Origin: Eggerthia catenaformis OT 569 = DSM 20559
GTDB taxonomy: Bacteria > Bacillota_I > Bacilli_A > Erysipelotrichales > Coprobacillaceae
DNA length: 64,000 nucleotides
Direction: 5' to 3'
Assembly (NCBI RefSeq): GCF_000340375.1
Contig: NZ_KB446648.1
Coordinates: forward strand, 167,284-231,283
Made by a program: the position numbers and the translations under genes. Shown in pieces: positions 17,776 through 54,925 of this stretch (its first letter is position 1; the number at the start of each line of letters is the position of its first letter). The notes beneath the pieces were generated by a model. It ran no database searches. It was not told where the DNA came from and saw nothing but the letters and a program-made list of their open reading frames with translations.

Positions 17776-17799
17776 GGCTGATAAGCAGCCTTATTTTTC
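17771..17799 (+). terminator. Intrinsic terminator after the glucosaminidase
   Basis: A 10-bp stem (AATAAGGCTG / CAGCCTTATT), loop ATAAG, followed by T4. Confidence 0.88.
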
Positions 17800-17818
17800 T
17801 ATTGTTTTATAAAAAGTA

Positions 17819-17847
17819 TTGCATTTTTATATATTCTAGTGTATATT
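17819..17847 (+). promoter_or_regulatory. Promoter of the three-tRNA cluster
   Basis: TTGCAT at 17819-17824 and TATATT at 17842-17847, spacer 17 nt, about 20 nt before tRNA-Asn. Confidence 0.65.
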
Positions 17848-17866
17848 AATTAAGCAATAATTGAAT

Positions 17867-17943
17867 GCCTCAATAGCTCAGTTGGTTAGAGCATCTGACT
17901 GTTAATCAGGGGGTCGTAGGTTCGAGTCCTACTTGAGGCGCCA
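17867..17943 (+). tRNA. tRNA-Asn (GTT)
   Basis: 77 nt with encoded CCA. The acceptor stem GCCTCAA/TTGAGGC pairs fully, the anticodon loop is CTGTTAA and the T-loop is GTTCGAGTC. First of three tRNAs separated by only 2-4 nt. Confidence 0.97.
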
Positions 17944-17945
17944 GT

Positions 17946-18021
17946 GGCGGATTGGAGAAACGGTTAACTCACATGCCTTTCACGCATGCATTCACGGGTT
18001 CGAATCCCGTATCCGTCACCA
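17946..18021 (+). tRNA. tRNA-Glu (TTC)
   Basis: 76 nt with encoded CCA. The acceptor stem is GGCGGAT/ATCCGTC with one G-T pair. The anticodon loop CTTTCAC is closed by the GCATGC-type stem. Confidence 0.96.
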
Positions 18022-18025
18022 TGAT

Positions 18026-18101
18026 GGGAGCTTAGCTCAGTTGGGAGAGCGTCTGCCTTACAAGCAGAGGGTCAGCGGTTCGAGCCCGTTAGCTCCCACC
18101 A
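18026..18101 (+). tRNA. tRNA-Val (TAC)
   Basis: 76 nt with encoded CCA. Acceptor stem GGGAGCT/AGCTCCC, anticodon loop CTTACAA. Confidence 0.97.
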
Positions 18102-18110
18102 TTTTTATTT

Positions 18111-18133
18111 GATGTAGAAATACATCTTTTTTT
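18111..18133 (+). terminator. Terminator of the tRNA cluster
   Basis: A 6-bp stem GATGTA/TACATC closed by a GAAA tetraloop and followed by T7. Confidence 0.8.
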
Positions 18134-18161
18134 ATTGTTTTAGTAAATTTCCGGTAAACAA

Positions 18162-18190
18162 TTGACTACCTGCTTTTGTATCCATATAAT
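18162..18190 (+). promoter_or_regulatory. Promoter of the galM-galK operon
   Basis: TTGACT at 18162-18167 and TATAAT at 18185-18190 with a 17-nt spacer, close to consensus. A loose inverted repeat TTGTTT-N15-AAACAA (18135-18161) ends next to the -35 box and might be a sugar-repressor site. Confidence 0.75.
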
Positions 18191-18222
18191 TAGTTTAGAT
18201 AACTTATTAGAAAGGATATAAT

Positions 18223-35322: not shown

Positions 35323-36158
35323 TGAAGAAATTGAGACAGTTGGTGACTCCTTATATCATTTGGAGTGTGTTAATGCTGCTTTTACCGATGCTGCTTGTAG
35401 CAATGTATTCATTGATGCAAACAGGAAACAGTATTATTACTTTTAAAATCACCTTTAATAATTATATTCGTTTCTTTACAGATTCTGATTTCTTGCTGAT
35501 CTTATGGAGATCTTTAGTTATTGCTTTTAAAACAACAGTTATCTGTCTGATTCTAGGTTATCCGATAGCTTATTATATTTCTAAGACTAAGCCTGAAAAA
35601 CAGAGGCTGCTGGTGTTATTAATTACTTTACCCATGTGGATTAACATGCTTGTACGTACTTATGCATGGATAGGATTATTATCAAGTGATGGTATTATTA
35701 CCGGTTTTTTACATCTGCTTGGCTTTAAGCATGTTCAACTCCTTTATACTGAAACAGCGGTATTAATTGGTATGGTTTATAATTTTCTTCCATTTATGAT
35801 ATTACAGATTAATACGGCTTTATCAAAGATGGATAAATCACTTATTGAGGCCAGTCATGATTTAGGGGCTGATCCTAAGGCAACATTTTTAAGGGTTGTT
35901 TTTCCGCTATCTATTTCAGGCGTTGTTTCGGGCATTACATTAGTATTCTTGCCGGCAGTAAGTTCCTTCTTTATTCCTAAGCTATTAGGAGGAGGTCAGT
36001 ATTTTTTGATTGGTAACGTTATTGAAAATCAATTTATTACAGTAGGTGAATGGAATTTCGGTTCCGCTATTTCAATGATCATTGCAGTCATTATGATGCT
36101 TTTGATGATGCTTGTAAGAAAAGCGGAGTCCTATGGTGCAGTAAAGGGGGATGAATAA
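35322..36158 (+). CDS. potB: Polyamine ABC transporter permease PotB
   Basis: A 278-aa permease with six predicted membrane helices. The cassette-contacting loop is EASHDLGADPKATFLRVVFPLSISG. Its ATG overlaps the potA stop (TAATG), so the two are coupled. It forms the membrane pore with the PotC half of the next gene product. Confidence 0.94.
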   Translation: MKKLRQLVTPYIIWSVLMLLLPMLLVAMYSLMQTGNSIITFKITFNNYIRFFTDSDFLLILWRSLVIAFKTTVICLILGYPIAYYISKTKPEKQRLLVLLITLPMWINMLVRTYAWIGLLSSDGIITGFLHLLGFKHVQLLYTETAVLIGMVYNFLPFMILQINTALSKMDKSLIEASHDLGADPKATFLRVVFPLSISGVVSGITLVFLPAVSSFFIPKLLGGGQYFLIGNVIENQFITVGEWNFGSAISMIIAVIMMLLMMLVRKAESYGAVKGDE

Positions 36159-36159
36159 G

Positions 36160-38049
36160 ATGCAGAAAAGAAAGAATTCATTTCTAAAGATTTTACTGGT
36201 TTTATCTATTATCTTCTTTTATATGCCTATTCTTTTTATGATGATATTTTCATTTAATAGTACCAAGTCATTAACTCATTTTACCGGGTTTTCATTAAAG
36301 TGGTATGAAGCTATGATTAAGAATCATAGTATGATGGAGTCTTTATATATTACAATTATTATTGCAATACTTGCGACATTGATTGCAACAATGATGGGAA
36401 CTATTACAGCTATTGGTTTATCACAGTCAGGTAAAAAAATTAGACGCTTTATTTCTATAATAGATGATTTTCCCTTAATGAATCCTGATATTGTAACAGC
36501 TATTGGCTTTATGCTTTTATTTATTACTTTAAATATATCAAAAGGCTTTATAACATTACTGCTTGCTCATATAGCATTCTGTGTTCCTTATGTTATTTTA
36601 TCAGTTATGCCTAAAGTAAAATCATTAGATCCTAATTTAGCTGATGCTGCTATGGATCTTGGAGCATCTCCTGCCAGAGCTATTTTTCAGGTGATTGTTC
36701 CTCAGATTATGCCGGGTATTATTTCCGGGGCATTAATTGCTTTTACAATGTCATTTGATGATTTTATTATCTCTTATTTTGTAACCGGAAGAGGTATTAA
36801 GAATCTGAGTATCATGGTCTATACAATGAGTAAGAGGGTTAATCCGAGTGTCAATGCAATCAATACAGTTATTGTATTACTGATTACAGCAGTTCTTATT
36901 ATTGTGAATATAAGACCAATGATTAAAGAAAAAAGAATGAATCAGTCAAAAGATCTGGTAATCAAAAAGAGATGGCCGACCTATTTAGGAAGCTTCGTGA
37001 TTGCATCTGCTTTAATTATTTCATTATTTGGAATTAATAGTGTTTCTAAAAAACCGTTTTCCGGACAGACTCTGCATATTTATATGCCTGGTGAATATAT
37101 TTCTGAAGATGTGATTACTGAATTTGAAAAGACTACCGGAGCAAAGGTTGTTATGGATAACTTTGAATCTAATGAACAGATGTATATTAAAGTAGCTAAT
37201 GGAGAATCTTATGATTTATTAATACCTAGTGATTATATGATTCAAAGATGTATACAAGAGAATCTGTTGATGAAAATAGATCGCAGTAAACTGGATGATA
37301 CATTTAATGTTTTAAATCCATCTATTCTTGATCTTTCATTTGATAGAAAGAATCAGTATTCCATACCCTATTTCTGGGGTAGTGTTGGTATTTGTTATGA
37401 TAAGAGAAAAGTATCATTAGATGATTTAGAGAAACAAGGATTTAATATCTTTTTGAATACTAAATATAAAGGACAAATTTATTTATATGATTCAGAAAGA
37501 GATTCGTTTATGATGGCACTAAAAGCTTTAGGCTATTCTATGAATACTACGAGTAAAAAAGAACTCAATGAAGCATATAACTGGTTGGTTAAGTCAGTTA
37601 AAACAATGAGTCCGGAAATTGTAACAGATGAAATTATAGATAATATGGCACATGCCAGAAAAGCATTAGGATTAGTTTACTCAGGAGATGCTGCTTATAT
37701 TATGGGTCAAAATAAGAATATGGGATTCTATCTTCCTAAGTCAGGTACGAATATTTGGACGGATAGTATGTGTATTCCTAAGAATGCTCGTAATGTAAAT
37801 TTAGCTTATGAATTTATGAATTATATTACTGAGGAACAGACAGCTATTAAGAATTCAGAATATGTTGGCTATACTTCACCTAATAAAGAAGCCGCTTTAC
37901 AGCTTTCACAGGGAACATTTAAGGGCAATAATGCTTATATACCAAGAGAGAACTATAAAAATGATGAAGTATTCCAATATAATGAAAAAACAAGAAAAGA
38001 AATCGCAAATTTATGGTCCGGGGTTAAAATATCCGCCAGCAATAACTAA
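36160..38049 (+). CDS. potCD: PotC permease fused to PotD binding protein
   Basis: A 629-aa fusion. Residues about 1-260 are the PotC permease (six helices, coupling loop AAMDLGASPARAIFQVIVPQIMPG). A further helix at about 275-291 (YLGSFVIASALIISLFG) carries the chain outwards. Residues about 300-629 are a PotD-type polyamine-binding protein (LHIYMPGEYISEDVITEFEKTTGAKV, PYFWGSVGICYD, the C-terminal FMNYITEEQTA). The fusion replaces the separate lipoprotein of most PotABCD systems and anchors the binding protein to the translocator. The ATG at 36160 is 9 nt from AAAGGGGG and preferred over 36151, which touches it. Confidence 0.94.
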   Translation: MQKRKNSFLKILLVLSIIFFYMPILFMMIFSFNSTKSLTHFTGFSLKWYEAMIKNHSMMESLYITIIIAILATLIATMMGTITAIGLSQSGKKIRRFISIIDDFPLMNPDIVTAIGFMLLFITLNISKGFITLLLAHIAFCVPYVILSVMPKVKSLDPNLADAAMDLGASPARAIFQVIVPQIMPGIISGALIAFTMSFDDFIISYFVTGRGIKNLSIMVYTMSKRVNPSVNAINTVIVLLITAVLIIVNIRPMIKEKRMNQSKDLVIKKRWPTYLGSFVIASALIISLFGINSVSKKPFSGQTLHIYMPGEYISEDVITEFEKTTGAKVVMDNFESNEQMYIKVANGESYDLLIPSDYMIQRCIQENLLMKIDRSKLDDTFNVLNPSILDLSFDRKNQYSIPYFWGSVGICYDKRKVSLDDLEKQGFNIFLNTKYKGQIYLYDSERDSFMMALKALGYSMNTTSKKELNEAYNWLVKSVKTMSPEIVTDEIIDNMAHARKALGLVYSGDAAYIMGQNKNMGFYLPKSGTNIWTDSMCIPKNARNVNLAYEFMNYITEEQTAIKNSEYVGYTSPNKEAALQLSQGTFKGNNAYIPRENYKNDEVFQYNEKTRKEIANLWSGVKISASNN

Positions 38050-38566: not shown

Positions 38567-38649
38567 TGGTGCGGATGACAGGACTTGAACCTGCACGCCG
38601 AAGCACTAGATCCTAAGTCTAGCGTGTCTGCCAGTTTCACCACATCCGC
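38567..38649 (-). tRNA. tRNA-Leu (TAG)
   Basis: 83 nt with long variable arm and encoded CCA. Acceptor GCGGATG/CATCCGC, anticodon loop CTTAGGA. Confidence 0.96.
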
Positions 38650-38654
38650 ATGGA

Positions 38655-38730
38655 TGGTGACTCGCAGGAGATTCGAACTCCTGACCCTCTGATTAAAAGT
38701 CAGATGCTCTACCGACTGAGCTAGCGAGTC
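38655..38730 (-). tRNA. tRNA-Lys (TTT)
   Basis: 76 nt with encoded CCA. Acceptor GACTCGC/GCGAGTC, anticodon loop CTTTTAA. Transcribed ahead of tRNA-Leu on the same strand. Confidence 0.97.
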
Positions 38731-38852: not shown

Positions 38853-38872
38853 AGGAAAAGGAGGCTATGATT

Positions 38873-39529
38873 ATGAAAATTATGATTGTAGAGGATGATA
38901 TAACTATTCGGAAAGAGTTAGAAATTTTATTAAAGAGTGCAGATTATGAAGTACTTATTCTTAAGGATTTTGAACATTCCTTAGATTATATCTTAGAGAA
39001 TAAGCCTGATTTATTATTATTGGATATTCAAATACCTTATTTAAATGGAGAAATGCTTTTAAAGCAGATTAGAAAGCACACACAGATGCCTGTGATTATG
39101 GTTACCAGCAAGGATAATGAAGCTGATGAAGTACTCTCTATGAGTTATGGAGCTGATGATTATATTACTAAGCCTTATAATCCTACTTTATTGTTACTTA
39201 GAATACAGGCTGTCTTAAAGAGAACTGCTACTAAACAGGATTCTTATTATCATGATATTTATGTAGATCTTAATAAAGGAATATTAAGTACTTCTAATAA
39301 AGAGGTTATTCTGACAAAGAATGAAATGATTATTTTTAATTATATGTTTAATCATTTAGGTCATATTGTAACAAGAGATGAGCTGATGACTGATTTATGG
39401 GATAATAAAGAATATGTAAGTGATAATACCTTAACTGTGAATATCTCCAGATTAAGAAATAAATTAAATGAATTGGGATATAAGGATTCTATTGTAACAA
39501 GAAAAGGACAGGGTTATTTATTATTATGA
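38873..39529 (+). CDS. OmpR-family response regulator, BceR-like
   Basis: A 218-aa regulator: receiver domain (MIVEDD, phospho-acceptor Asp in LLLLDIQIPYLNG, MVTSKDNEAD, DDYITKPYNP) followed by a winged helix (ILTKNEMIIFNYMFNHLGHIVTRDELM, then ISRLRNKLNELG). Together with the next three genes it forms a Bce-type module against cell-wall-active peptides. The ATG at 38873 is 8 nt from AAAGGAGG; one at 38867 is too close. Confidence 0.93.
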   Translation: MKIMIVEDDITIRKELEILLKSADYEVLILKDFEHSLDYILENKPDLLLLDIQIPYLNGEMLLKQIRKHTQMPVIMVTSKDNEADEVLSMSYGADDYITKPYNPTLLLLRIQAVLKRTATKQDSYYHDIYVDLNKGILSTSNKEVILTKNEMIIFNYMFNHLGHIVTRDELMTDLWDNKEYVSDNTLTVNISRLRNKLNELGYKDSIVTRKGQGYLLL

Positions 39530-40521
39530 GCTATTTAAAAGATCATTTATGTCATATAGGTGCTATTATCATTTTAATGATATTAGAATATTTTATGGGC
39601 AGAGTATTTTTTATTGATGAATCTTATTTAATAGCACAGATAGTATTAACGCTTATTGTATTTACCGGTATGATACTTTATGACTATTTTAGAAAGATTC
39701 CTTATTATCATAAGTTTGAAGAAAGACTACAGGAATTGGATCAGAAATATTTAATTATTGAGACAATGCAAGAACCTTCATTTTATGAAGGGAAGATCAT
39801 GTATCATTCTTTATATCAGATTAATAAATCAATGAATGAAAAGATATATGATTATTTTAGAGAAGTACAGGACTTTAAGGAATATATAGAGGTGTGGATT
39901 CACGAAGTGAAGACACCTATTTCCAGTCTTTCTTTAATGTTTCATAATTTAGGGAATATGAGAGCTGTTTATCAGCTTAAGAAAATAGAGAACTATACAC
40001 AGCAGGTTCTTTATTATTTAAGAAGTCAAAGTACAACACAGGATTATATTATTAGGGAAGTATCATTAGATGAATGTGTTAATCATGTATTAGTAAAGAA
40101 TAAAGATGAATTACTGGGATATCATTTTCAGTTAAAGATAGATCATTTATCATCATCGGTGATGAGTGATAATAAATGGCTTGAATTTATTATTAATCAG
40201 ATTATTTCTAATTCTATGAAATATAGAAGTGATTTTCCTTATATTAAAATAAGCTGTAAAGAAGATGCTCAGCAGACTGTTTTAAGCATTTATGATAATG
40301 GGATAGGTATTAAGTCAAGTGATCTGCCTTTAATTTTTAATAAGTCATATACAGGTATGAATGGACATATAGAAACTAAAGCTACAGGGATGGGACTATT
40401 TATTGTTAAGAAATTATGTGATGCTTTAGGACATGAGATAAAGATTGAATCAAAAGAGAATCAATATACATTAGTTAGTATTATATTTCATAAAAATGAT
40501 TATTATGTGACAAAATTGTAA
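39526..40521 (+). CDS. Intramembrane-sensing histidine kinase, BceS-like
   Basis: A 331-aa kinase with two membrane helices near residues 10-27 and 37-55 and almost no extracellular loop. This is typical of BceS, which is activated by its transporter partner rather than binding peptide. The H-box is WIHEVKTPISSL. The ATPase domain has NQIISNSMKYRS, DNGIGIKSSDLP and GMGLFIVKKL. Start overlaps the regulator stop (ATGA). Confidence 0.93.
   Translation: MSYLKDHLCHIGAIIILMILEYFMGRVFFIDESYLIAQIVLTLIVFTGMILYDYFRKIPYYHKFEERLQELDQKYLIIETMQEPSFYEGKIMYHSLYQINKSMNEKIYDYFREVQDFKEYIEVWIHEVKTPISSLSLMFHNLGNMRAVYQLKKIENYTQQVLYYLRSQSTTQDYIIREVSLDECVNHVLVKNKDELLGYHFQLKIDHLSSSVMSDNKWLEFIINQIISNSMKYRSDFPYIKISCKEDAQQTVLSIYDNGIGIKSSDLPLIFNKSYTGMNGHIETKATGMGLFIVKKLCDALGHEIKIESKENQYTLVSIIFHKNDYYVTKL
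40508..40521. promoter_or_regulatory. BceR-type box before bceA
   Basis: TGACA-AAAT-TGTAA matches the TnACA-N4-TGTAA inverted repeat described for BceR-like regulators. It overlaps the kinase stop codon, 75 nt before the ATPase start codon. A clear -35/-10 pair was not resolved between it and bceA. Confidence 0.6.
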
Positions 40522-40595
40522 GATTAAATCATATTAAACAAACGACTTGCTTTATCAATTACTATAGACTAGGTGATGAAAGAGAGGAAATAACT

Positions 40596-41354
40596 ATGAA
40601 TATTTTAAAAGTGGAACACATTGAAAAATATTATGGAAACAAATCAAATATCACTAAAGCTATAGATGATCTTTCTATGAATGTAGAAAAAGGTGAGTTT
40701 GTAGCAATTATGGGAGCAAGCGGTTCGGGAAAGACAACTTTATTAAATTGTATTTCTACTATTGATCGAGTGACAAGCGGACATATTTATGTGAATGGAT
40801 TAGATATTACTTCTTTAAGAGATAAGCAGCTTGCTTCTTTTAGAAGAAGAGAACTGGGATTTATTTTTCAGGATTTTAATCTGATTGATACTTTAACAGG
40901 ATATGAAAATATCTCACTGGCTTTATCTATTTCTCATCAGGAAAAAGAGATGAAAGAAAAGATAGAAAAACTGGCACAAGAATTGGATATTAAAGATGTT
41001 TTAAATAAGTATCCTTATGAGATGAGTGGCGGACAGAAACAGAGAGTTGCCGCGCAGAGAGCCTTGATTACTGCACCGGCACTTATCTTAGCTGATGAAC
41101 CGACAGGATCATTAGATTCCAAGTCATCTAAATTTTTATTAGAAAAAATGAATTTTTTAAATAAAGAACATGATGCAACAATTTTAATGGTTACTCATGA
41201 TGCTTTAAGTGCCTCTTATGCCTCTAGAGTTATTTTTATCAAAGATGGAAAAGTTTTCCATGAAATCTATAAAGGAGAAGATGATAGGAAAACATTTTTC
41301 AATAAGATCATTGATGTTGAAACATTACTGGGCGGTGATTTAAATGATTTTTAA
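40596..41354 (+). CDS. Bce-type peptide transporter ATPase
   Basis: A 252-aa cassette protein of the MacB/BceA class. GASGSGKTTLLNCI, the Q-loop GFIFQDFNLI, MSGGQKQRVAAQRAL and LADEPTGSLDSKS are complete. The gene overlaps the permease gene by 11 nt. In Bce modules this pair frees lipid II-cycle intermediates from peptide antibiotics such as bacitracin. Confidence 0.95.
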   Translation: MNILKVEHIEKYYGNKSNITKAIDDLSMNVEKGEFVAIMGASGSGKTTLLNCISTIDRVTSGHIYVNGLDITSLRDKQLASFRRRELGFIFQDFNLIDTLTGYENISLALSISHQEKEMKEKIEKLAQELDIKDVLNKYPYEMSGGQKQRVAAQRALITAPALILADEPTGSLDSKSSKFLLEKMNFLNKEHDATILMVTHDALSASYASRVIFIKDGKVFHEIYKGEDDRKTFFNKIIDVETLLGGDLNDF

Positions 41355-43383
41355 ATTAGCTTATCGCAATATCCGAAAAAGTATCAAAGATTATGGTGTT
41401 TATTTCTTTACTGTTGCTTTAGGTGTTGCTATTTTCTATGTTTTTAATGCAATAGAAACACAAACTGCTATGATGAAGATTTCATCAGATCAAAGAGAAA
41501 TTATTCGTCTGATTGTTGCTGTTCTTTCAGGAGTCAGTGTGTTTGTATCAATGGTTTTAGGTTTCTTAATTATCTATGCCAATCAGTTTTTAATTAAACG
41601 CAGAAAAAAAGAATTTGGAATCTATTTGATTTTAGGAATGACTAAACAGAAAGTCTCTTTTATTCTCTTTTTAGAAACACTTATGGTAGGTACATTGTCT
41701 TTAGTAACAGGGTTATTATTAGGAAGTGCTCTTTCTCAGATTATGGGAATTGCTGTTGCAAATATGTTTATTGCGGATGTAAAGAAATTTGCTTTTGTTT
41801 TTTCTATGAAAGCTATGATAAAGACTATACTCTATTTTGGTGTACTATATTTACTGGTAATGATTTTTAATACATTATCCATTTCATCATCTAAGATTAT
41901 TACATTATTATGTAAACAGGAAAATGAAAAAATAAGATTTAAAAATCCTATTATTTCAGCTCTTCTTTTAATTGCCGGCATTATTTGTTCTATCAGTGCT
42001 TATTATATGGTTGTTGATTCAAAAACCTTTTTTAAAATATTAAGATTAGGATCAAATTACGGTGAAGGTATACTTATTCCAATCGGATTAGGAATCATTG
42101 CAACTTTCCTTATTTTTTATTCAGGAACTACAATTGTTTTAACTATACTAAAACATACTAAAAGATATAATAGAAGATTAAATATATTTACTTTTAAGCA
42201 GCTATCTTCTCAGATGAATACCATGGTTGTTTCAATGTCTATTATCTGTATTTCTTTATTTATTACTATCTGTATGCTTTCTACCGCAATGACAATCAGA
42301 CAAACTTTAAATGATCAGGCATCCGGCAAATCACCGGCTGATTACTGTGCTATTTTTTATACCAGGGATAAGAAAGATAGGAACATTCCCGAGCTATTGA
42401 AAAAAGCGGGATTTGATATTGATAAACAGTCAAAGGAATATATATATATAAAAGCATTCATTGCTTCTCAAAATGATATGAGCTACAAGGCTTTACTTGG
42501 TGATAAATATAAAAATTATGAAAAAGAATTAGAAACTATTAATAATGCCGGATGGTCAATGATGAGTATTAGTGACTACAATAAAGTAGCAAAAATATAT
42601 CATCATAAACAGTATACACTTAATAATGAATATATGATCTTAACAGATTATGATATACCTGCCAGCTATCAGAATAAGGGATTAAAAGATAAGCCATCAT
42701 TAACTATCAACGGCTATAAATTAGCTTCTAAATATAATTCTTGTCAGAATGGCTTTGTAAGTATGGATAAAGGTACAAATCCGGGTATTCTGATTGTTCC
42801 TGATTATGTAGTTTCGAAGATGAAGCCTTATACAAAACTGCTGATTGGTAATTATCATTCATCAGATAATAGAAAAACAGAGGATCAGTTTAAAAAATCT
42901 ATAGATTCAATGATAACTAATAATCCCGAAGGTATCGGCGGTTATTTGCTTCGAAGCAAAATAGAAAATCAGCTTTCATCTGTAGGCTTATCTTTGCTGG
43001 CAACTTTTATCGGCTTATATATAGGAATTGTTTTCCTGATTTCTTCAGCAGCTATTCTGGCTTTAAAAGCATTATCTCATACCGGTGATTCATTAAATCG
43101 CTATGAAATACTTAAAAGATTAGGTGCGGATGATATGATGCTTAGGCACTCTCTATTTAAACAGATATTTATTCTGTTTATGATTCCGCTTATTTTAGCA
43201 ATTATTCATTCAGTTGCCGGGATAAAATTCAGTATGTTCTTATTAACATCTACTGCATTAGTAAGTGCAAAATATCTCTTAAGCAGTACGCTTATGATTG
43301 GAGCACTATTCCTAATGATTTATGGTGGATATTTCTTTGTGACTTATCGTATGAGTCTGCATATGTTAAGGGAATCTAGTTAA
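41344..43383 (+). CDS. Bce-type peptide transporter permease
   Basis: A 679-aa FtsX/BceB-type permease. About ten membrane helices can be counted: two FtsX-like bundles of four or so flank a large extracellular domain of roughly 230 residues (about 315-545). That domain between helices 7 and 8 is the peptide-sensing part in characterised BceB proteins. The N-terminal FKLAYRNIRKSIKDYGVYFFTVALGVAIFY is characteristic. The stop overlaps the convergent membrane-protein gene by 4 nt. Confidence 0.93.
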   Translation: MIFKLAYRNIRKSIKDYGVYFFTVALGVAIFYVFNAIETQTAMMKISSDQREIIRLIVAVLSGVSVFVSMVLGFLIIYANQFLIKRRKKEFGIYLILGMTKQKVSFILFLETLMVGTLSLVTGLLLGSALSQIMGIAVANMFIADVKKFAFVFSMKAMIKTILYFGVLYLLVMIFNTLSISSSKIITLLCKQENEKIRFKNPIISALLLIAGIICSISAYYMVVDSKTFFKILRLGSNYGEGILIPIGLGIIATFLIFYSGTTIVLTILKHTKRYNRRLNIFTFKQLSSQMNTMVVSMSIICISLFITICMLSTAMTIRQTLNDQASGKSPADYCAIFYTRDKKDRNIPELLKKAGFDIDKQSKEYIYIKAFIASQNDMSYKALLGDKYKNYEKELETINNAGWSMMSISDYNKVAKIYHHKQYTLNNEYMILTDYDIPASYQNKGLKDKPSLTINGYKLASKYNSCQNGFVSMDKGTNPGILIVPDYVVSKMKPYTKLLIGNYHSSDNRKTEDQFKKSIDSMITNNPEGIGGYLLRSKIENQLSSVGLSLLATFIGLYIGIVFLISSAAILALKALSHTGDSLNRYEILKRLGADDMMLRHSLFKQIFILFMIPLILAIIHSVAGIKFSMFLLTSTALVSAKYLLSSTLMIGALFLMIYGGYFFVTYRMSLHMLRESS

Positions 43384-43397
43384 ACTAGATTCCTTTT
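43371..43397. terminator. Bidirectional terminator
   Basis: A 10-bp stem (GGAATCTAGT / ACTAGATTCC) with a TAA loop, followed by CTTTT on the plus strand. It overlaps the stop codons of both converging genes. Confidence 0.75.
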
Positions 43398-44156
43398 ACT
43401 TAATGAGATAATAAATAAACCTAACCATATACCTAAAGGAACACTATACATGATAAGAAAAATATAGCCTATCTTTAGAATCTTAAAGCAAATAATTATT
43501 ATAACAGTAAATATTATTATATGAATAGGTACCGTTTTTTTGAGATAAGAAGAATCTTGTTTTCCTATCAGCCATAAATAAATAGGAATAAATAATAGTA
43601 GTCCTAAAGGTATCATATAAGTTTTCTGGATGATATCACTTGCAAGTATTCTTCTAAGATATATACCTGTTTTGGCAACAAGAGTATAATTAATGCTCAT
43701 TGTCAGTATGCCCATATATGGTAAAACGAAATGAAGAGGCTTAGAGATATTAAAAGTCTTTTGATCTGATAAATATGACTGAATAAAAGTAAAGATAAAT
43801 AGACTGCCCCAGACACTAACAGCCGGTGAAAAAATAATATTACAGTGATCAATATAACCAATGAACTTTAATCCGACCATAATTAATATGATAAAAATAA
43901 AAAAATGAATCAGATTATTTCTTCTGATTGTTTGCTTATCTAGATAAGCATTGCTTTTTATATAAAGATAGATAGGTATAGATAGACATATACCGGCTAT
44001 TAATCCTAATACTATAACAGTTAATTCATAATTTAAAATACTATGTGTCTGATGTCCATTATTATACCAAAGATAATAACGAATGATAATATAATGAAAA
44101 ATAGTAATTAAACAATAACCGATATAAGGCATAGTATAATGAGAATATTTTTTCAT
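43380..44156 (-). CDS. Unknown multi-pass membrane protein
   Basis: A 258-aa protein of about seven or eight hydrophobic helices joined by short, weakly basic loops. No known family motif was recognised. It could be a peptide-immunity-like or transporter-like protein, but nothing in the sequence decides this. It faces the Bce module and is preceded by a broken small secreted-protein gene that ends 5-15 nt before it, so the two form an operon. The ATG at 44156 is better spaced from GGAGAG than one at 44165. Confidence 0.7.
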   Translation of the reverse strand: MKKYSHYTMPYIGYCLITIFHYIIIRYYLWYNNGHQTHSILNYELTVIVLGLIAGICLSIPIYLYIKSNAYLDKQTIRRNNLIHFFIFIILIMVGLKFIGYIDHCNIIFSPAVSVWGSLFIFTFIQSYLSDQKTFNISKPLHFVLPYMGILTMSINYTLVAKTGIYLRRILASDIIQKTYMIPLGLLLFIPIYLWLIGKQDSSYLKKTVPIHIIIFTVIIIICFKILKIGYIFLIMYSVPLGIWLGLFIISLSKRNLV

Positions 44157-44170
44157 AATAGTCATCTCTC

Positions 44171-44450
44171 CTATGAAGATAATGTTCTAAAAAATGAGTG
44201 AGTATCAAAATATATTGTGTCCTTACCGTAATCCCATTTACATATTAATTGAAATGAACAAGAAAAATCTACACTAGAATAATTAATACTATCAATTGTT
44301 AATTTTAATGATAATTTGACTATTATTATTTAATGCAGTTAAAAGGGCTTTATATAAGTAGTCATTTTGCTTTTTGGCATTAGTAAGTTTTAATGAGCCA
44401 CTGATTATAAATAAGAAACTTAATAATACTATAACAATTTTTTTAAACAT
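44171..44450 (-). pseudogene. Small secreted protein gene, frameshifted
   Basis: A first reading frame (44450 to 44292, 52 aa, ATG preceded by AAAGGAG) starts with a convincing signal peptide: MFKK, then IVIVLLSFLFIISG, ending near LTNA. It stops at TGA. One base further (44296 to 44171) an uninterrupted second frame of 41 codons continues (IDSINYSSVDFSCSFQLIC, then a Trp/Tyr/Phe-containing tail) to a TAG just before the next gene's ribosome site. Joined by a single-base shift near 44297 they give a secreted protein of about 93 aa. Alternatives are a real 52-aa peptide with unrelated trailing sequence, or a sequencing error. I recognise no family. Confidence 0.5.
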
Positions 44451-44690
44451 ATACTTTATCACTCCTTTTTTTATCGATGAATTGTTAAAATGTGGGATTT
44501 AATTGTACATTTTGAATCACCTTTCTTTTCTATTATATTATATGATGAACAACTTATATTTATCTTAATATTATCATAGTATGAAACCGATTTCAATATA
44601 AAAGCTAATTTTTTATCAAGAAACTATTTAATAGTCTATTAGTTTATTTTTATAAACAATTATTCTATACTGTAAAAAAGGAGATTGGCT

Positions 44691-45098
44691 ATGGAAATAA
44701 AGATCTATGATTATTTACATCAGGATGTTAAGAATATTAGAGAACAGGTATTTATAGAAGAGCAGGGATTTAATGAAGAGTTTGATGATATTGATCAAGC
44801 CTGTTTCTTTTTAGTTGTTTATGAAAATAAGTTGCCTTTAGGAACCCTAAGATATTTTAAAGAGAATGATAAATGGTATATTGGCAGGGTAGCAGTTAAA
44901 AAAGAAGCGAGAGGAAAACACTTGGGAAGTCTTTTAATGGATAAAGCAGAATCTTTATTAAAGCATCAAACAGATAAGATTTATTTAGAGGCACAGGTAA
45001 GAGCTTCTCATTTTTATGAGAGTTTGGGTTATAGGAAGACAGATCAAACTCATGATGATGAAGGGGTTTTACATGTATTAATGTATAAGGAAATATAA
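44691..45098 (+). CDS. GNAT-family N-acetyltransferase (ElaA-like)
   Basis: A 135-aa GNAT protein. VFIEEQGFNEEFDDIDQACFFLVVYE is typical of the ElaA-like group, and the acetyl-CoA loop is IGRVAVKKEARGKHLGSLLMDKAE, followed by ASHFYESLGYRKTD. Substrate is unknown. The ATG at 44691 is 8 nt from AAAGGAG; an in-frame TTG at 44685 is rejected. Confidence 0.9.
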   Translation: MEIKIYDYLHQDVKNIREQVFIEEQGFNEEFDDIDQACFFLVVYENKLPLGTLRYFKENDKWYIGRVAVKKEARGKHLGSLLMDKAESLLKHQTDKIYLEAQVRASHFYESLGYRKTDQTHDDEGVLHVLMYKEI

Positions 45099-45106
45099 AA
45101 ATCCTC

Positions 45107-45910
45107 TTAGGGCTTATAGATAGTGATTTTTATGTCAATAGTAACATCAAGATTATTAAGTGTATCTAAGATATAACGCTTATCTTTCTTGATATGATAG
45201 TAATGAGGTGTCATCTTTAAGAGATTAAGAGTATCTTCTTTATTACCGATAGATATTTTCTTTATAAAATCATAGCTTTCTAATATGTTAAAGGGCTGTC
45301 TGATAAATTTATCAGATTTATTTATAATTTCATCATAAATAAGATGTTTTATTTCAAGAAGATGGTTTCTGTTAGCTGTAACATGTATCATATAGCCATC
45401 TTTTTTTAGTGTTCTTTTTATTTCATCACTATTCACAACTGTAAATAATGCCATAATAACATCCAATGAATGATCGGTAATCGGAATATTCTTACTATTA
45501 GCAACCATCCAGGTAATGTCTTTGTCATATCTTGTTGCCATATCAATAGCTGTCTTAGAGATATCTAAAGCATAATAATGATGTGTATTTCCTAATATTT
45601 CTTTTGCTTTCTTGCTGTAGTATCCTTCTCCGCATCCGAGATCTAATAGATTTAATGGATGAGAGGTATGCTGTTTTATATAACGAGTACATTCTAATAA
45701 TATAGGATCATAGTATCCTTTGTTTAAAAAAGCTCTTCTGGATATCAATGATTCTTTAGAATCACCCGGATGATTTGTAGATTTATCAGGATTTAATAAG
45801 AGATTAATATAACCTCTTTTTGCTATATCATAACTATGATGATTCATACATTGATATGTTTTATCAGTCTTTTTCAATTCTAAATGACATTTAGGACATG
45901 CTATACTCAT
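45107..45910 (-). CDS. rlmA: 23S rRNA guanine methyltransferase, RlmA-type
   Basis: A 267-aa SAM-dependent enzyme. An N-terminal zinc finger (CPKCHLEL..CMNHHSYD) and AKRGYINLLL identify the RlmA family, which methylates N1 of G745 or G748 in 23S rRNA helix 35. In Gram-positive bacteria the G748 type can contribute to macrolide (tylosin) resistance; which site is used here is not visible. The SAM motif is LLDLGCGEGYYSKKA. The ATG at 45910 after AGAGG is preferred over one at 45934. Confidence 0.9.
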   Translation of the reverse strand: MSIACPKCHLELKKTDKTYQCMNHHSYDIAKRGYINLLLNPDKSTNHPGDSKESLISRRAFLNKGYYDPILLECTRYIKQHTSHPLNLLDLGCGEGYYSKKAKEILGNTHHYYALDISKTAIDMATRYDKDITWMVANSKNIPITDHSLDVIMALFTVVNSDEIKRTLKKDGYMIHVTANRNHLLEIKHLIYDEIINKSDKFIRQPFNILESYDFIKKISIGNKEDTLNLLKMTPHYYHIKKDKRYILDTLNNLDVTIDIKITIYKP

Positions 45911-54869: not shown

Positions 54870-54925
54870 ACTAGAGCAACTTACTTTGGAGTAGCATATA
54901 TTTCAAGGCGGAAGGAGAGACAACT

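Follow-up and report, generated by a model that had tools for sequence, protein, structure and literature searches.

A candidate orphan unit of a small exported protein and a multi-pass membrane protein, with a possible one-base frame break, beside a Bce-like module of Eggerthia catenaformis

Introduction

Lactococcin 972-type systems consist of a precursor of about 91 residues with a Sec signal, a large membrane protein, and an ABC ATPase. A more general kind is that of a membrane-protein gene preceded by a gene for a small secreted protein. Bce-type peptide resistance modules (PMC10314905) combine a regulator, a kinase, an ATPase, and an FtsX permease.

Here, we consider a stretch of 64,000 nucleotides of Eggerthia catenaformis OT 569 = DSM 20559 (contig NZ_KB446648.1, positions 167,284–231,283; below, the window), which contains the following neighboring elements:

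38867–43383, plus strand: Bce-like module (response regulator, histidine kinase, ABC ATPase, FtsX permease), intact
43380–44156, minus strand: gene of an orphan multi-pass membrane protein (258 aa from the ATG at 44156, 261 aa from the ATG at 44165)
44168–44172, minus strand: AGGAG, ribosome site preceding the membrane gene
44171–44329, minus strand: open frame shifted by one base, perhaps once the second half of the small gene, ending with TAG at 44173–44171
44292–44450, minus strand: small gene, first part (52 codons), from the ATG at 44450 to the TGA at 44294–44292
44462–44466, minus strand: AGGAG, ribosome site preceding the small gene

The product of the small gene read through the frame break resembles the lactococcin 972 precursor in size and signal, and the ABC ATPase nearby reaches 212.1 bits against TIGR03608, short of the cut-off of 254.85; however, this ATPase is encoded beside an FtsX permease and a two-component system, and it was matched better by another family. 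The read-through product (P0001) showed no match to this family in Pfam and NCBIfam, libraries that include a model of the lactococcin 972 precursor, at E-values up to 10. The locus agrees with the general kind of a secreted-protein gene ahead of a membrane gene in its Sec-signal-like start, short length, own ribosome site, and a membrane gene directly 3′, but differs in that no family was matched for either product. The plus-strand neighbor has the same four components as Bce-type modules (PMC10314905), whereas the small and membrane genes lie on the opposite strand and were not seen beside related modules.

Results

The small gene

The preliminary description of this DNA had reported a ribosome site, an ATG, a signal-peptide-like start, and a TGA on the minus strand, followed by a membrane gene, with a frame shifted by one base running on to the latter. 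All of these are present: the first four at 44466–44292, the shifted frame open from 44329 to the TAG at 44173–44171, and the small gene directly ahead of a multi-pass membrane gene without a known family.

Sec-exported small proteins are recognized by a positively charged start, a hydrophobic core, and a cleavage site. Here, MFKK is followed by a hydrophobic stretch with a hydropathy maximum of 2.96 over 14 residues, starting from residue 5, and cleavage may occur after TNA; the hydropathy was computed, while the positive charge and the cleavage site were judged by eye. The product of the 52-codon frame would retain about 27 residues once the signal is removed.

Chance expectations were derived from 2000 dinucleotide shuffles of 44171–44660. 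An ORF of at least 52 codons with a ribosome site and an ATG was found in 0 of 2000 shuffles, hence a chance origin of the first part is unlikely; when one shift was allowed, an ORF of 92 codons or more was found in a single shuffle (1/2000). When the tail was shuffled, 915 of 5000 sequences had some frame open, and 400 of 7443 had this particular frame open, so that, given the first part, the openness of the tail is not remarkable.

Coding scores, relative to non-coding DNA, come from a phase-specific model that was trained on the genes of the window. The tail (44296–44174) is about neutral, with a log-likelihood of −0.5; scores of −0.5 or lower are seen in about 0.2% of 423 window gene chunks of 123 bases each, and among the 400 tail shuffles that stay open, 105 reach the score of the tail itself. 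The first frame, in its mature part, falls on the non-coding side (−2.2 log units). Among the tested genes, the membrane gene has the lowest coding score (a mean of 4.9 per chunk); therefore, the whole islet is unusual in composition. The GC content reaches the minimum of its profile, 21.8%, at 44250–44749.

With ORFs of at least 60 aa called, which cover 94% of the window, the longest ORF-free gap is 44166–44684. The other long gap, 17776–18222, holds three tRNAs, forming a plus-strand cluster at 17867–18098 that fills this second-longest gap of the window; a cluster of two more tRNAs lies on the minus strand at 38570–38730.

The shifted tail and the place of the break

The stop codon of the tail, TAG at 44173–44171, falls within the AGGAG (44172–44168) of the membrane gene, with 14 bases between this stop and the ATG at 44156. 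The latter is likely to be the start of the membrane gene, rather than the ATG at 44165, given that AGGAG precedes it by 11 bases, just as in the small gene.

Both frames are open across the 38 bases of 44329–44292; therefore, the break cannot be pinned to 44290–44300, as had been suggested. The codon-phase model places the best change points at 44316–44320, but prefers them only slightly, the 25 listed points being within about 1.3 log units. The longest homopolymer run in the overlap is a single AAAA. Programmed frameshifting was considered; inspection by eye revealed neither a slippery run nor a ribosome-site-like stimulator just before the TGA. A pseudogene is defined by a break relative to an intact relative; here, the frame is interrupted, and no relative was found for comparison.

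Predicted fold of the read-through product

AlphaFold2 modeling of the single read-through sequence yielded a mean pLDDT of 66.0 and a pTM of 0.44. The five models had pLDDT of 66.0, 63.6, 52.4, 46.5, and 42.0, two of them exceeding 60. The predicted elements are a helix (residues 31–42) and three strands (45–57, 60–73, and 78–91), blocks from residue 31 to 90 averaging pLDDT 71–81; the first strand is continuous through the join at residues 50–51. The predicted fold across the join mildly favors one former protein. According to PMC13294457, AlphaFold2 gives high pLDDT to short spurious and random sequences, with a mean pTM of about 0.2 in the case of AntiFam, against 0.61 for Swiss-Prot sequences.

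Structural searches with the read-through model gave a best Foldseek match at E 0.37 and a best VIA-align match with Z 4.5 to a cystatin-like inhibitor, and thus revealed no relation. The single-sequence model of the membrane protein is all helical with a poor pLDDT of 55.6, and Foldseek with this model, whose quality is too low for such use, found nothing better than E 6.3.

Relatives of the two products

In a set of 98 genomes, with no other genome of the genus among them, the membrane protein matched only its own (1/98). Matches were found in 12 of 315 genomes at E-values up to 0.1 and in 4 of 395 at E-values up to 0.001, in both cases including its own; the E-values are per genome, so some matches of this sort are expected. 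The best other match of the twelve (5.9e-4) contains an internal stop, and its DNA reads by eye as a different gene. Among the four, the best other match (L059, 7.5e-5) lies within a 294-residue ORF, cation-efflux-like by eye, and is probably a chance match of membrane helices, and the remaining two (L060 and L061) carry internal stops. No match of the membrane protein was found in genome contigs, viral contigs, plasmids, or phages. Its match to PHROG 13072 (E 6e-4) was discarded as too short, the best stretch being 19 residues.

The X-joined product of the small gene, at E-values up to 1, matched 29 of 43 genomes, all but its own at 0.006 or higher. The read-through product, at E-values up to 0.001, matched 2 of 309 genomes including its own, the other match lying within a 133-residue ORF, zinc-ribbon-like by eye. 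No match of the small-gene product was found in viral contigs, plasmids, or phages. Neither the small-gene nor the membrane product exceeded a curated cut-off in Pfam or NCBIfam; a family search of the joined product, proposed in the preliminary description as a check, thus matched no family in these libraries. For both products, nothing usable was found in PHROGs or PDB sequences, and nothing in PADLOC.

On sequence comparison, neither product has a recognizable relative in the collections searched, and the two genes are an orphan pair in this sense. It had been proposed that a lack of conservation of either frame in related genomes would refute the small gene. Neither frame is indeed conserved in the genomes searched, but the neighboring long ORF is equally without relatives; as this real-gene-like membrane ORF fails the same test, the small gene is better described as an orphan than as an artefact.

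The Bce-like module

The permease of the module ends at 43383 and the membrane gene at 43380, hence the two are convergent and share 4 bases at their 3′ ends. At E-values up to 1e-30, the permease has relatives in 31 of 60 genomes, including its own. Downstream of 21 related permeases (L016–L036), no pair of a convergent multi-pass membrane gene and a gene for a small secreted protein was seen, and the neighbors there vary, by eye; the stretches read were 1.2–1.5 kb for L016–L034, with ORFs of at least 40 aa or at least 60 aa listed. The association of the pair with the module thus looks particular to this genome.

The preliminary description had linked the pair to the module and likened the arrangement to peptide-plus-immunity pairs. 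The pair, being on the opposite strand, does not share a transcription unit with the module, and no recurrent association emerged among the 21 related permeases; so, the link was not borne out, and what speaks for a peptide-plus-immunity function is proximity alone. The window also holds, at 36151–38049, an ORF of 632 residues that by eye resembles a polyamine ABC permease fused to its binding protein (potC–potD type).

The upstream region

Three further elements precede the small gene:

44499–44510, minus strand: tiny ORF ATG-TAC-AAT-TAA with AGGTG upstream, read from the letters
44568–44596, minus strand: promoter-like site TTGAAA-17-TAATAT, with TG before the second hexamer
44582–44595, no strand assigned: cre-like palindrome TGAAATCGGTTTCA, overlapping the promoter-like site

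The tiny leader-like ORF, previously placed at about 44513, is present at 44510–44499. ORFs of at most 6 codons with a ribosome site and an ATG occur in 140 of 2000 shuffles, and this one may be a chance product. An attenuator in the leader was rejected: the RNA fold has a z-score of 0.55, and 43000–45400 contains no terminator-like site. No known RNA family was found near the small gene; elsewhere in the window, an L31-Firmicutes ribosomal protein leader is seen at 54884–54917 (35.7 bits). No flanking repeat of note points to mobile insertion of the islet. Promoter-like sites number 21 against 19.0 expected, about the frequency seen in shuffles, and such a site alone is no evidence.

The criterion for a CcpA cre operator was a match to WTGNNARCGNWWWCAW / TGAAARCGYTTTCW, the former being the Bacillus subtilis cre consensus (PMC3463425). 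The palindrome departs from this consensus at one core position (T for R); with the weak-box consensus, 12 of 14 positions agree, and T and G flank the central CG. The exact sequence TGAAANCGNTTTCA occurs at a single place in the 1.94-Mb genome (44582–44595; control 0). For the looser TGWAANCGNTWNCA, 5 forward matches (control 2) and 7 reverse matches (control 2) fall at 8 places; several of these immediately precede ORFs, one of which is glycerol-kinase-like by eye. Three regulator genes match the ccpA model, all below the cut-off. From these sequence features, a sugar-responsive operator at 44582–44595 is plausible; the palindrome stands between divergent genes, the small gene and an acetyltransferase gene, and may serve the acetyltransferase instead.

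Discussion

We tentatively read the islet, with a probability of about 0.45, as an orphan lineage-specific unit of a small exported and a membrane protein, in which the first gene is broken. The minus strand would carry a two-gene unit, a Sec-exported protein gene originally of about 92–93 codons followed by the membrane gene, both products being directed to the cell envelope. The small gene would be interrupted by a frame break of one base, somewhere between codons 41 and 52; its product would now be no longer than a 52-residue precursor, trimmed to about 27 residues on loss of the signal, and would probably be functionless. Transcription would probably start from the site overlapped by the cre-like operator, and a LacI/CcpA-type regulator would repress the unit when sugar is plentiful. 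For this reading speak the shuffle results for 52 and 92 codons, the predicted fold across the join, the signal-like start, the tail stop inside the next ribosome site, the longest gap of the window, and the unique TGAAANCGNTTTCA; against it, the weak coding scores, the common openness of the tail, and the spread of the AlphaFold2 models. Since neither frame has relatives in the collections searched, the intact ancestral gene is putative.

The absence of 52-codon ribosome-site ORFs from the shuffles also suits a true intact exported peptide of 52 residues, the tail being an untranslated leader of the membrane gene, open by accident; the frequent openness and codon neutrality of shuffled and actual tail, respectively, agree with this. 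Such a peptide is nonetheless unlikely, if a serious candidate, as the predicted fold spans the join, the tail stop is placed in the ribosome site of the next gene, and the mature part scores as non-coding. If neither frame were a gene, the islet would be an AT-rich spacer with a chance ORF, as the lowest GC content of the profile, the weak codon signal, and the lack of relatives would allow; the shuffle test with the ribosome site and the hydrophobic signal-like start right after this site make it improbable. A sequencing or assembly error in an intact gene, suited by the fold and by gene spacing that fits the unbroken frame, seems slightly less credible still: the 38-base stretch contains only AAAA as its longest run, and frequent indel errors are unlikely in a genome rated 100% complete in 8 contigs, with ORFs covering 94% of the window.

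The arrangement itself suggests an exported peptide that attacks cell walls, a membrane protein that protects the producer, and a Bce module that senses or resists the peptide. We regard this as very improbable, as the pair is convergent and not cotranscribed with the module, is not seen beside the 21 related permeases, matches no bacteriocin or immunity family, and has a broken small-gene frame. There is an equally slim chance that the two products represent a novel type of exported peptide and a membrane protein dedicated to it (for immunity, reception, or export), the copy in this genome having been silenced recently, beside a peptide-resistance module.

Returning to the broken two-gene unit, the finding would be of greater importance only if an intact copy encoded a peptide with antimicrobial activity, accompanied by an immunity protein of its own; the evidence for this is position alone. 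If real, the small gene would encode another lineage-restricted secreted protein of the sort that gene calling would overlook, here caught in decay.
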